Below are positions 22,366 to 26,632 of a stretch of DNA of 34,448 nt, piece by piece (within the stretch, counting starts at the first letter, position 1; every line of letters starts with the position of its first letter). Where the stretch lies: contig CACJUZ010000008.1 in the NCBI GenBank assembly GCA_902596745.1, positions 1 through 34,448 of the forward strand. The letters are read 5' to 3'. The notes beneath the pieces were generated by a model. That model saw only the letters and a program-made list of their open reading frames with translations. It was not told the DNA's origin and made no database searches. The translations under genes and the position numbers were made by a program. The DNA is from an uncultured Pelagibacteraceae bacterium (GTDB taxonomy: Bacteria; Pseudomonadota; Alphaproteobacteria; Pelagibacterales; Pelagibacteraceae).

Positions 22366-23607
22366 TTATACGGCAAGCTTGAAAGCAAAATCTTTACCTA
22401 GACTCTTATTTAAATGAACACAAAACCTTGCTCCCTCCGCACCATCGATAATTCTATGATCGTAAGACAAAGATATTGGTAAAATTTTTCTATTTACTAG
22501 CTGACCTTTAATTCTAACTAATTTGTCATAACTTCTTCCAACACCTAAAATCGCGACTTCAGGTGGATTTATTATTGGAGTAAAAAATGTTCCACCTATT
22601 CCTCCCAAACTAGAAATAGTCATTGAACCACCAAAAAATTCTTTTTTATTTATTTTTAAATCTCTGCACTCCCTACTTACTTTTCTCAATTCATCTCCTA
22701 TTTCTTTAATATTCATCTGATCAACATCTCTTAATTTTGGAACCATAAGCCCATGAGGTGTATCTACAGCAAAACCAATGTGGTAATATTTTTTATAAAC
22801 TATTTTATTTTGATCAGGATCTATTGAACAATTAAAATTAGGAAAATCTTTTAAAGCATTTACAACTGCCCTAGTTATAAAAGCTAAAGGCGTTACAGAA
22901 ATTTTTTCTCCAGTGAAATGATCAAATAATGATGTTCTAAATTGCTCCATTTCTGTAATATCAATTTCGTCGTGTTGAGTTACATGTGGTATTTCAGTCC
23001 ATGATCTTACTAGTTGAGGTCCTGAAAGCTTTTTTACTCTTGGTATTTCCTTGATCTCAATTTCTCCAAATTCTTCATGTGAATATTCATCTTTATATTT
23101 TTTCGGTTCAACTTTACCTTGATTGACAGATACTTGAGACTTAACAAATTTTTTTACATCATCTTCTGTTACTCTGCCCGATCTCTGTGAACCTTGTATT
23201 TGTGTTACATTAGCGCCAAGTTCTCTTGCAAATTTTCTGACTTTAGGGCTAGCTAATTTAACCCCCGAGGTAGATTGAATAACTGGAGAAGGAACTGGGT
23301 CTGGTTTCTTTGATATTATTTCTTTAACTTTGTTTTTTTGTAAAGGTTTTTCTTTCAAATCTGTTTTTGATTCTTCGCTAACAGTAAGTATAAGATCACC
23401 TTCACTTACTTTATCACCTATCTTAATTTTAATTTTTTCTATAATCCCATCTGATGTAGATGGTACCTCTACACTGGATTTGTCGCTTTCGATTGTAATT
23501 AAAGAGTCATTTTTTTTTATTTTTTGTCCGGCCTTAACCAAAACCTCAATGACCTCAACATCTTTAAAATCACCTATGTTTGGAACTAAGATATCTTTAG
23601 AGGACAT
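22366..23607 (-). CDS. aceF: pyruvate dehydrogenase E2, dihydrolipoamide acetyltransferase
   Basis: This 413-residue E2 has one lipoyl domain (about 1-80, lipoylated Lys43 in ESDKSSVEVPS). A linker and a peripheral-subunit-binding domain follow (about 118-160: ASPKVRKFARELGANVTQI ... SGRVTEDDVKKFV). The catalytic domain carries SYDHRIIDGAEGARF near its end, containing the catalytic His and Asp. E2 passes the acetyl group from lipoamide to CoA. The single lipoyl domain contrasts with the three in the E. coli enzyme. It follows aceE after 1 base. The lipoyl domain is about 70% identical by eye to the one fused to AceE. Confidence 0.95.
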   Translation of the reverse strand: MSSKDILVPNIGDFKDVEVIEVLVKAGQKIKKNDSLITIESDKSSVEVPSTSDGIIEKIKIKIGDKVSEGDLILTVSEESKTDLKEKPLQKNKVKEIISKKPDPVPSPVIQSTSGVKLASPKVRKFARELGANVTQIQGSQRSGRVTEDDVKKFVKSQVSVNQGKVEPKKYKDEYSHEEFGEIEIKEIPRVKKLSGPQLVRSWTEIPHVTQHDEIDITEMEQFRTSLFDHFTGEKISVTPLAFITRAVVNALKDFPNFNCSIDPDQNKIVYKKYYHIGFAVDTPHGLMVPKLRDVDQMNIKEIGDELRKVSRECRDLKINKKEFFGGSMTISSLGGIGGTFFTPIINPPEVAILGVGRSYDKLVRIKGQLVNRKILPISLSYDHRIIDGAEGARFCVHLNKSLGKDFAFKLAV

Positions 23608-23608
23608 T

Positions 23609-26600
23609 TTATAATTTTGTTGGAAACACTTTTTCTTTATTTATTTTGTATTTCTTAATCGCTTTTTCTGCATGCTTGGATGCAATTAATTGCTCTTTCG
23701 CTAATGCACTTAGAGTGTAAGCAACAATATGTTGTTTATCAACTTCAAAAAACTTTCTCAGATTTTTTCTTGTATCACTTCGTCCATATCCATCAGTTCC
23801 GAATGAATAGAATGGCTTATTTACATATGGTCTAAGCTGATCTGAAAATGATCTAATATAATCAGAAGCTGCAAACACAGGGCCTTCTCTTTTTTCTAAA
23901 CATTTTTCCACGTAAGATTTCTTCTTTTTTCCATCAGGATTTAATAAGTTCCATCTTTCAGTTTCCATCCCGTCTTTTCTGAGCTCATTAAAACTTGTGA
24001 CACTCCAAATATCAGAGTCAATTCCATATTCTTTAGAAAGAATTTCAGCAGCATCTATTACTTCTCGCAAGATTGTACCAGAGCCTAGAAGTTGAACTCT
24101 AGTATTGCCTTTATTTCTTGTTTCTTTAAGCAAATACATTCCTTTTAAAATACCATCGTCAACATCTTTAGGTTTAGCAGGATGAGGATAATTTTCATTC
24201 ATTGCCGTAATATAATAAAAAATATTTTCTTTTTTTTCATGCATTCTTCTAATTCCATCTCTTAAGATTACAGCCATTTCATATGCAAAAGTTGGATCAT
24301 AACTTACACAATTTGGAATATTAGATGCCATAAGATGACTATGACCATCTTGGTGTTGTAATCCCTCTCCAGCTAGAGTTGTTCTTCCAGCAGTTGCACC
24401 AATTAAAAAACCTCTTGCTTGAGAGTCTCCTGCTGCCCAGGCCAAATCACCAACTCTTTGAAATCCAAACATTGAATAAAATATGTATATAGGTATCATT
24501 TCTATATCATGATTTGTGTATGCTGTTCCCGCCGCAATCCAAGATGACATAGCCCCAGACTCTGTAATCCCCTCCTCTAAAACCTGTCCACTTTTATCTT
24601 CACGATAAGAACTCAGTTGCTCAGAGTCGACTGGCTCATATTTTTGTCCTTCGTGAGCATAAATTCCTATTTTTTGAAAAAAACCTTCCATACCAAATGT
24701 TCTAGCTTCATCTGGAATTATCGGAACTAATCTTGGTGATACATTTTTGTCTCTTAACAAAGCAGTAAGCATTCTTACCAAAGCCATAGTAGTCGACATT
24801 TCTTTTTCCCCTGTCGACTTCATAAAACTATCAAAAATATCTTTTGGAGGAGTTTTAACCGCTTTTGCAAAAGATGTCCGCTCTGGAATAAATCCACCTA
24901 ATTTTAATCTGCGATCTTTAAGGTATTTAATTTCTTCTGAATTTTCATCAGGTCTATAATACTCAATATTTTTAACTTGTTTGTCCGTCAGAGGAACACC
25001 AAATCTGTCTCTATAGTATAACAAATCTTCCTCATCCATTTTTTTCTGTTGATGAGTGGTATTTATACTTTCACCAGATTTACCCATTCCGTACCCTTTA
25101 ATTGTTTTAGCAATAATGACTGTTGGCGAACCTTTATTTTTCATAGCAGCATCGTACGCTGCGTAAACTTTATGAGGATCATGACCACCCCTATTTAATT
25201 TCCATATGTCTTTATCTGTCAAAGTAGATACTAATTCTTTTAATTCCGGGTATTTACCAAAAAATTTTTCTCTTACATAGTTACCACCTTTTGCCTTAAA
25301 AGCTTGATATTCACCATCCACACACTCATTCATTCTTTTAATTAAAAGCCCGCTTTTATCTTTTGCTAAAAGTTGATCCCAATAAGAACCCCAAATTACT
25401 TTAATCACATTCCATCCTGTCCCTCTGAAACTACCTTCAAGTTCTTGAATAATTTTACCATTCCCTCTAACAGGACCGTCAAGTCTTTGTAGATTACAAT
25501 TAATCACAAAAATTAAATTATCTAATTTTTCTCTTGCTGCTAATCCAATCGCACCTAATGACTCTGGTTCATCCATTTCACCATCACCTAGAAAAACCCA
25601 AATTTTTCTCCCTTCATCTTTAATTAATCCTCTATTAATTAAATATTTTAAAAACCTAGCTTGATAGATACCCATTATTGGTCCAAGTCCCATAGATACG
25701 GTCGGGAATTGCCAGAAGTTTGGCATTAACCATGGATGAGGATAAGAGGACAATCCATCTTTTTCAACTTCTTGTCTAAAGCCATCTAATTGTTTAGCAG
25801 TTAGTCTTCCCTCTAAAAATGCTCTAGCGTACATACCAGGTGCTGAGTGTCCTTGAAAATATATTAAGTCACCACCAAATTTATTATTTTTTGCTCTCCA
25901 AAAATGGTTCATTCCTACATCGTATAATGTTGCAGCTGATGCAAAAGTTCCTATATGTCCACCAAGTTCTGAACTTTTTTTGTTTGCTTTCACAACCATA
26001 GCAGCGGCATTCCACCTTATGTAGGCACGGATTTTTTTTTCAATATTTTGATCTCCTGGTGATTTAACCTCTGCTTCAGGCGGAATAGTATTTATATATG
26101 GTGTTGTTCTAGTGTCAGGAAGCACCAATCCTGCCTTATAGGCTTGATCGATTACTTTATTTAATAAGTAACTTGCTCTGGACGCCCCATCATTTTCAAT
26201 TACAGAATTTAAAGACTCAATCCACTCATTTGTCTCTAACGGATCAATATCATCTTTGGATGTCGGCTCAGCAAAAACTTTTTTAATTTGTTTCAAAGAT
26301 TGAGTAGTGACAACATTTCCATTTTTTTTTGGTTTTTCTTTTTTAATTTCTTTGTGAACTTTTTGCTCTTCATTTTTGACTTGAATATTAGGGCTATCTT
26401 TAGACTCTAATGTTACTAGTAAGCTCCCTTCTGAAACTTTATCACCAACTTTAACTTTTAAATCTTTAATTTGTCCTTCTGAAGGAGATGGAATTTCTAC
26501 ACTTGATTTGTCACTCTCAATAGTAACCAAGGGATCATTTTTTTTAATTTGATCTCCTGGTTTTACTAATACTTCGATTACTTCCACATCTTTAAAATCA

Positions 26601-26632
26601 CCGATGTCAGGGACTGAAATATTTTGAGCCAT
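23609..26632 (-). CDS. aceE: lipoyl-domain fusion of homodimeric pyruvate dehydrogenase E1
   Basis: This 1007-residue protein is a homodimeric E1 (AceE) with an added lipoyl domain. Residues 1-77 are the lipoyl domain, with the expected lipoylated Lys42 in ESDKSSVEIPS. Residues 78-126 are a charged Lys/Glu linker. From about 127 (DIDPLETNEWIESLNSVIE) it aligns with ordinary AceE. The thiamine-pyrophosphate site is FLGDGEMDEPESLGA ... VINCNLQRLDGPVRGNGKI, and the enzyme continues to the AceE-type C-terminus (SDTRKNLRKFFEVDKQHI). AceE decarboxylates pyruvate and acetylates lipoyl groups. AceE is usually about 890 residues with no lipoyl domain; the extra length equals the fused part. First gene of aceE-aceF; no lpd (E3) is present here. 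Confidence 0.95.
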   Translation of the reverse strand: MAQNISVPDIGDFKDVEVIEVLVKPGDQIKKNDPLVTIESDKSSVEIPSPSEGQIKDLKVKVGDKVSEGSLLVTLESKDSPNIQVKNEEQKVHKEIKKEKPKKNGNVVTTQSLKQIKKVFAEPTSKDDIDPLETNEWIESLNSVIENDGASRASYLLNKVIDQAYKAGLVLPDTRTTPYINTIPPEAEVKSPGDQNIEKKIRAYIRWNAAAMVVKANKKSSELGGHIGTFASAATLYDVGMNHFWRAKNNKFGGDLIYFQGHSAPGMYARAFLEGRLTAKQLDGFRQEVEKDGLSSYPHPWLMPNFWQFPTVSMGLGPIMGIYQARFLKYLINRGLIKDEGRKIWVFLGDGEMDEPESLGAIGLAAREKLDNLIFVINCNLQRLDGPVRGNGKIIQELEGSFRGTGWNVIKVIWGSYWDQLLAKDKSGLLIKRMNECVDGEYQAFKAKGGNYVREKFFGKYPELKELVSTLTDKDIWKLNRGGHDPHKVYAAYDAAMKNKGSPTVIIAKTIKGYGMGKSGESINTTHQQKKMDEEDLLYYRDRFGVPLTDKQVKNIEYYRPDENSEEIKYLKDRRLKLGGFIPERTSFAKAVKTPPKDIFDSFMKSTGEKEMSTTMALVRMLTALLRDKNVSPRLVPIIPDEARTFGMEGFFQKIGIYAHEGQKYEPVDSEQLSSYREDKSGQVLEEGITESGAMSSWIAAGTAYTNHDIEMIPIYIFYSMFGFQRVGDLAWAAGDSQARGFLIGATAGRTTLAGEGLQHQDGHSHLMASNIPNCVSYDPTFAYEMAVILRDGIRRMHEKKENIFYYITAMNENYPHPAKPKDVDDGILKGMYLLKETRNKGNTRVQLLGSGTILREVIDAAEILSKEYGIDSDIWSVTSFNELRKDGMETERWNLLNPDGKKKKSYVEKCLEKREGPVFAASDYIRSFSDQLRPYVNKPFYSFGTDGYGRSDTRKNLRKFFEVDKQHIVAYTLSALAKEQLIASKHAEKAIKKYKINKEKVFPTKL

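Follow-up and report, generated by a model that had tools for sequence, protein, structure and literature searches.

The pyruvate dehydrogenase complex (PDH) of SAR11 bacteria (Pelagibacteraceae) carries a lipoyl domain (LD) on its homodimeric E1. The swinging lipoyl arm (hereafter the arm) has probably been relocated from E2 to E1 in this family, the E1-borne domain (E1-LD) being primary throughout and the E2 of many lineages, itself without an arm, consisting of a peripheral subunit-binding domain (PSBD) and a catalytic core. The architecture was identified in aceE on a 34,448-nucleotide stretch of DNA from an uncultured member of SAR11 (contig CACJUZ010000008.1, assembly GCA_902596745.1; hereafter the window), with the following features.

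23609..26632, minus strand: aceE, encoding an LD, a linker and a homodimeric pyruvate dehydrogenase E1 (1007 aa, ATG start; PF00364 over residues 4-75, TIGR00759 over residues 125-1005).
26402..26626, minus strand: N-terminal LD of AceE, approximately residues 3-77, with the lipoyl-lysine position at Lys42 (PF00364; confident block with a beta-strand pattern in the AlphaFold2 model; dN/dS).
26507..26509, minus strand: Lys42 codon in the motif ESDKSS, the predicted lipoylation site (invariant in alignments of 26 and of 25 AceE rows; motif conservation among E1-LDs).
26261..26401, minus strand: flexible K/E-rich linker, approximately residues 78-124 (low model confidence; family linker lengths; dN/dS).
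23612..26260, minus strand: E1 part of AceE, its first ~45 residues being the counterpart of the Escherichia coli E1 segment that binds the E2 PSBD (alignment to 1l8a and 9h1n).
22366..23607, minus strand: aceF, encoding an E2 of 413 aa with one LD, an E3-binding domain and a catalytic domain (open reading frame and domain scan).

An earlier sequence-only reading had described a full N-terminal LD with ESDKSS (Lys42), a linker and a complete homodimeric AceE, and this was confirmed by matches to PF00364 Biotin_lipoyl (75.1 bits; cut-off 22.1) and to the TIGR00759 aceE equivalog (1444.2 bits; cut-off 859.9). The aceE stop is separated from the aceF ATG by a single base, and the LDs of the two adjoining proteins are 66% identical (52 of 79 aligned positions), near the ~70% previously estimated by eye. 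Residues 6-883 of E. coli E1 (1l8a) align to residues 127-1004 of the window AceE, and His527, invariant across 25 alignment rows, aligns to E. coli His407, which we take to be an active-site residue. By family score and conserved histidine the protein is a homodimeric pyruvate dehydrogenase E1 with predicted catalytic activity. In the AlphaFold2 model, the LD forms a block with a predicted local distance difference test score (pLDDT) of 70-88 and beta strands flanking the Lys42 turn, followed by residues 81-120 at pLDDT 23-25.

The LD-AceE fusion is the rule across Pelagibacteraceae. Whole-genome loci were found by the E1 family (TIGR00759) alone, those fetched being picked for spread over 12 genera; before counting, the set was cleared of AceE frames truncated by a contig end, of loci in which no AceF adjoins, of identical E1 sequences and of one partial locus (L004). 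This left 79 non-identical family loci where AceE is complete and AceF adjacent, and in 78 of them AceE bears at least one LD. The exception, L022 in genome G022, has an AceE with internal stops, an LD in an upstream 195-aa open reading frame and an E2 that keeps its LD. The sequence-only reading had proposed looking for the fusion in sister genomes and had named two separate proteins at this locus as evidence against it; the fusion proved to be shared, and the separate arrangement was absent from the family loci apart from the stop-interrupted L022. No complete main aceE without an LD was found among the family loci examined. A larger set of 143 loci, from which L022 was left out, added to the 78 a further 65 named loci, likewise non-identical, which an LD-plus-E1 query had selected and which are therefore biased toward fusions; the best 80 named loci from that query were all Pelagibacterales, Pelagibacteraceae or Pelagibacter, including Candidatus Pelagibacter ubique HTCC9565 (L243). 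Among the 143 loci, 92 have one LD each on E1 and E2, in 37 E1 has one and E2 none, in 7 E1 has two and E2 one, in 5 E1 has one and E2 two, and in 2 both have two. AceEs with two LDs (1102-1125 aa) predominate in genera g5 (5 of 6) and g236 (4 of 6). The second, divergent LD of AceF in genera g230 and g236 (L065, L068, L070, L117, L118, L122) is a pseudo-lipoyl domain, its lipoyl lysine being replaced in all six checked by Glu (four) or Asn (two).

Outside the family the fusion was not encountered. Within the class, 289 genomes were searched, three of them Pelagibacteraceae, and 8 gave an AceE score over cut-off; E1 carries no LD in any of the five non-family class genomes with AceE (L035-L039), whose E2 has one LD. 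At the level of the phylum, AceE exceeds the cut-off in 161 of 398 genomes; among the matches listed, an in-frame LD was present in none of 20 long-frame AceEs outside the family (all 14 of at least 957 aa and six of 939-943 aa), and occurrence of the fusion elsewhere in the phylum was rejected within this sample. The earlier expectation that an LD fused to homodimeric AceE would be much rarer than other E1-borne LDs thus holds outside SAR11 in this sample but not within Pelagibacteraceae. In the sister family f2, neither homodimeric AceE nor E1-beta was detected over cut-off in 16 genomes (G025-G040), apart from one partial E1-beta match with a stop in G029; nine of these genomes were searched for E2, eight having a single E2 and one having none, and these relatives may lack PDH. 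Seven short LD-less AceE paralogs (883-891 aa; L130-L133, L135-L137) occur in Pelagibacteraceae without an adjacent E2, and for the four that were scanned the aceE score is slightly below that with AKGDH_not_PDH, which itself stays under its cut-off. One further AceE frame (L128, genome G372; model positions 4-604) continues into a product of 1252 aa, perhaps through a frameshift or mis-assembly.

ESDKS is kept in 152 of 152 E1-LDs from the 143 loci. The ratio of nonsynonymous to synonymous substitution rates (dN/dS) is 0.00-0.15 for the E1-LD in 11 of 13 chosen pairs, those where it was computable (two tandem-LD pairs include the piece between the LDs), and 0.05-0.33 for the linker. The LD frame of AceE is therefore under protein-level purifying selection, and this, together with recurrence across the family and the universal ESDKS, argues that the E1-LD is neither a chance match nor the product of a misread start.

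In contrast to E1, E2 has no LD at many of these loci. By LD profile, AceF lacks the domain in 20 of the 78 loci of the E1-only set (and in the 37 of 143 given above). All nine LD-less AceFs scanned with Pfam contain E3_binding (PF02817) and 2-oxoacid_dh (PF00198) and no PF00364; relative to the aceE stop, the nearest ATG lies between 1 bp before and 6 bp after, and the E3-binding domain stands at the very start of the protein. The E3-binding (PSBD) arginines and the catalytic His/Asp are invariant in 16 aligned LD-less AceFs, the motif DHR.[IVL]DG is intact in 35 of the 37 (one, L078, is cut by a contig end), and a modeled LD-less AceF has a mean pLDDT of 73.8. Four LD-less genomes are near complete (G377, 99%; G407, 98%; G428, 97%; G329, 95%), and in each of them PF00364 over cut-off identifies three proteins, AccB, SucB and AceE, with no LD fused to E3. 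These four, out of 20 LD-less genomes searched, were also counted for E2 genes, and each has two, SucB and the LD-less AceF. With no other candidate LD and only these E2s, the LD of AceE is the only one able to belong to PDH there. The AccB sequences read, from seven LD-less genomes, carry the biotin motif EAMKT. An LD supplied by another gene was likewise rejected across all 20 genomes, in which the frames matched by PF00364 above cut-off have the sizes of AccB, SucB and AceE. Just two such matches were obtained in three of the genomes, where SucB or AccB is missing from the results; in G336 there is a partial match, unexamined, within a 157-aa frame at the end of a contig. All 11 genomes examined have LipB over cut-off, and 10 of them LipA as well. 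In the eleventh, the otherwise complete G366, LipA is split over two overlapping frames (C1:940635-941508), possibly by a frameshift.

It is thus likely that the E1-LD is a working swinging arm of PDH and, where E2 has no LD, the sole arm. The sequence-only reading had proposed instead that the E1-LD compensates for an E2 with only one LD; this is a poor fit, as the one-LD E2s of L035-L039 have no LD on their E1 and many SAR11 E2s have no LD at all.

The position of the E1-LD suggests how it might serve in place of an E2-borne arm. In E. coli, the N-terminal segment of E1 binds the E2 PSBD (PMC6270654, available excerpt), and PDB 9h1n contains a 49-aa E1 chain together with an E2 PSBD chain. 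The E1 chain aligns to residues 127-169 of the window AceE, and in the alignments the PSBD-binding segment is conserved immediately behind the linker. The K/E-rich linker of the E1-LD spans 40-88 aa (median 54; 141 linkers), much like the 41-56 aa (median 46; 77 linkers) between LD and PSBD in E2. Because E1 binds the PSBD through a segment just behind its LD, the E1-LD would be anchored near the usual position of the E2-LD, a geometry proposed by analogy. A PxTEKIIxxAE-like motif is present in 89 of the 141 distinct LD-E1 linkers (e.g., L098, L070) and missing from six rows of the window genus in alignment A1.

In the proposed mechanism, an AceF-type LD would have been duplicated onto the N terminus of homodimeric AceE in SAR11 and its Lys42 would be lipoylated. 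The lipoyl group would be reductively acetylated in an E1 active site, after which the acetylated arm would visit the E2 catalytic core for transfer to coenzyme A and would then be reoxidised by E3. Since the E1-LD and an E2-borne LD would be attached to the complex at almost the same place, the latter could have become dispensable and been lost repeatedly, leaving the E1-LD as the only PDH arm in those lineages.

Sequence comparisons are consistent with this history. Residues 4-115 of AceE score 92.4 bits with the AceF model as compared to 19.5 bits with that of LD-bearing E1-beta. The latter was rejected as a source of the domain, none of 41 genomes having a match over the NF008854 (heterotetrameric E1-beta) cut-off; four partial sub-cut-off matches start behind the LD part. 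On LD trees (73 columns, weakly resolved), the E1-LDs and E2-LDs of the family separate from outgroup E2-LDs. The E1-LDs do not form one clade on the free trees, although one E1-LD clade (approximately unbiased test, p-AU 0.55) and one E2-LD clade (p-AU 0.74) are each compatible with the data, i.e., with one duplication and repeated loss from E2. Duplication of an AceF-type LD and its fusion to AceE, as the sequence-only reading had suggested, is accordingly supported by the AceF-model match and the grouping of the LDs, while the order of events is not resolved by 73 columns. The E2-LD state changes 8 times and the number of E1-LDs 4 times on a FastTree aceEF tree of 143 family rows; on a 57-row aceEF tree (53 rows of the family) the counts are 9 and 4. 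Seven of the 9 E2-LD changes are forced by well-supported branches, so that there were at least 7. A single clade of LD-less loci was rejected (p-AU 1.8e-6), and regain of E2-LDs from E1-LDs received no support, the E2-LDs being compatible with one clade as above. The changes are thus predicted to be losses; if all 7 are, and if loss from E1 and E2 were equally likely, the probability of all 7 falling on E2 would be ~0.008.

Several observations weigh against a relocated arm. E2 keeps an LD in 106 of the 143 loci, and its first LD holds ESDKS in all 106; the E2 LD is therefore not simply useless. In four of the five sets compared, the E1-LD diverges faster than E1, by a ratio of 1.3-2.1; the ratio for the remaining set, of 3 pairs, is 0.98, and no consistent slow-down of the E1-LD was seen in loci whose E2 is without an LD. 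The LD-less AceF of the near-complete G377 (L085/L142) reads DHRVVNG, with Asn replacing the catalytic Asp. The seven LD-less AceE paralog loci are not among the rows of the tree and could be copies that lost the LD. The structure predicted for full-length AceE is poor outside the LD (mean pLDDT 47.8), confidence being low in its E1 part.

Other explanations were considered. One is that the LD-less AceFs borrow the LD of SucB in a mixed PDH/2-oxoglutarate dehydrogenase complex, the E1-LD being accessory. SucB with the lipoyl site ETDKV is present in both the LD-less G377 and the window genome, and a hybrid of the two complexes exists in Corynebacterium (PMC7568260, available portion), actinobacterial hybrid complexes sharing components. 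However, the E1-LD is of AceF type, is uniform in its ESDKS and occurs in every complete main aceE while the LD of E2 comes and goes, which makes borrowing improbable. Somewhat less probable still is a non-lipoylated E1-LD that serves as a docking or structural domain and helps to keep E1 on the E2 core. The lysine-less second LDs of some SAR11 AceFs indicate that an LD can be retained without its lysine, but the lysine of the E1-LD is invariant, and without a lipoylated E1-LD the PDH of LD-less genomes would have no arm of its own. That the LD-less aceEF loci are decaying or no longer encode PDH would agree with the Asn substitution in G377 and with the existence of an AceE copy with internal stops (L022, though its E2 keeps the LD). 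This is very unlikely given a dN/dS of 0.02-0.04 for E1 in five LD-less pairs, the predominantly intact AceF catalytic motif and the lack of any further AceE over cut-off among the matches listed for G329, G377, G407 and G428. Finally, a translation start at TTG113, near the residue 120 named in the sequence-only reading, would mean that the LD is never made, and although this codon is in frame (with GTG16 and TTG35, the only alternative start in residues 2-168, the next ATG being residue 212 within the catalytic part) and no clear ribosome-binding site lies within 40 bases before the AceE ATG, the purifying selection on the LD frame and its conservation across the family leave this a negligible prospect.

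A working arm on a homodimeric E1 would differ from the arrangements of known systems. SAR11 PDH shares with the E. coli-type homodimeric complex (AceE/AceF/Lpd) the class of E1, the PSBD, the catalytic E2, the aceE-aceF gene order and an AceF-type LD, but has one or two LDs on E1 and zero, one or two on E2, whereas E. coli E2 carries three. Actinobacterial OdhA, an E1-E2 fusion without an LD, resembles LD-less AceF in that its E2 catalytic unit depends on an LD located elsewhere; in the actinobacterial hybrid complex that LD is on AceF and not on E1. In Zymomonas and Sinorhizobium, as in SAR11, an E1 chain bears an LD, located at the N terminus of E1-beta; their E1 is heterotetrameric, unlike the homodimeric AceE, and E2 of this type keeps its LD. 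Matic 2003 is reportedly associated with a PDH of Mycoplasma hyopneumoniae that has its LD on E3. The accessible text of PMC7873978 likewise places the LD of this complex on E3, outside E2 as in SAR11 but on a different subunit and in an unrelated lineage; for Zymomonas, the same text assigns the LD to E1 alpha, while the title that it cites gives E1 beta. LDs on E3 proteins of Neisseria and Alcaligenes are also cited there, fused, as in SAR11, to a peripheral subunit, but to E3. For SAR11 IIIa, aceEF and multiple copies of aceE are reported, and the word "lipoyl" is absent from the main text as available (PMC10030771). No report of an LD-AceE fusion or of an LD-less SAR11 AceF was found in a literature search largely confined to openly available papers.

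An N-terminal lipoyl arm is normally the feature by which the E2 of a 2-oxoacid dehydrogenase complex is recognised. In SAR11, E2 is repeatedly without this arm and E1 retains one, and this in the most abundant heterotrophic bacterioplankton (PMC10030771, available text). Direct tests thereby become possible of whether active-site coupling demands an arm on E2, of the number of arms required per complex and of the geometry that is tolerated; such tests would be feasible with cultured SAR11 isolates and by heterologous expression.

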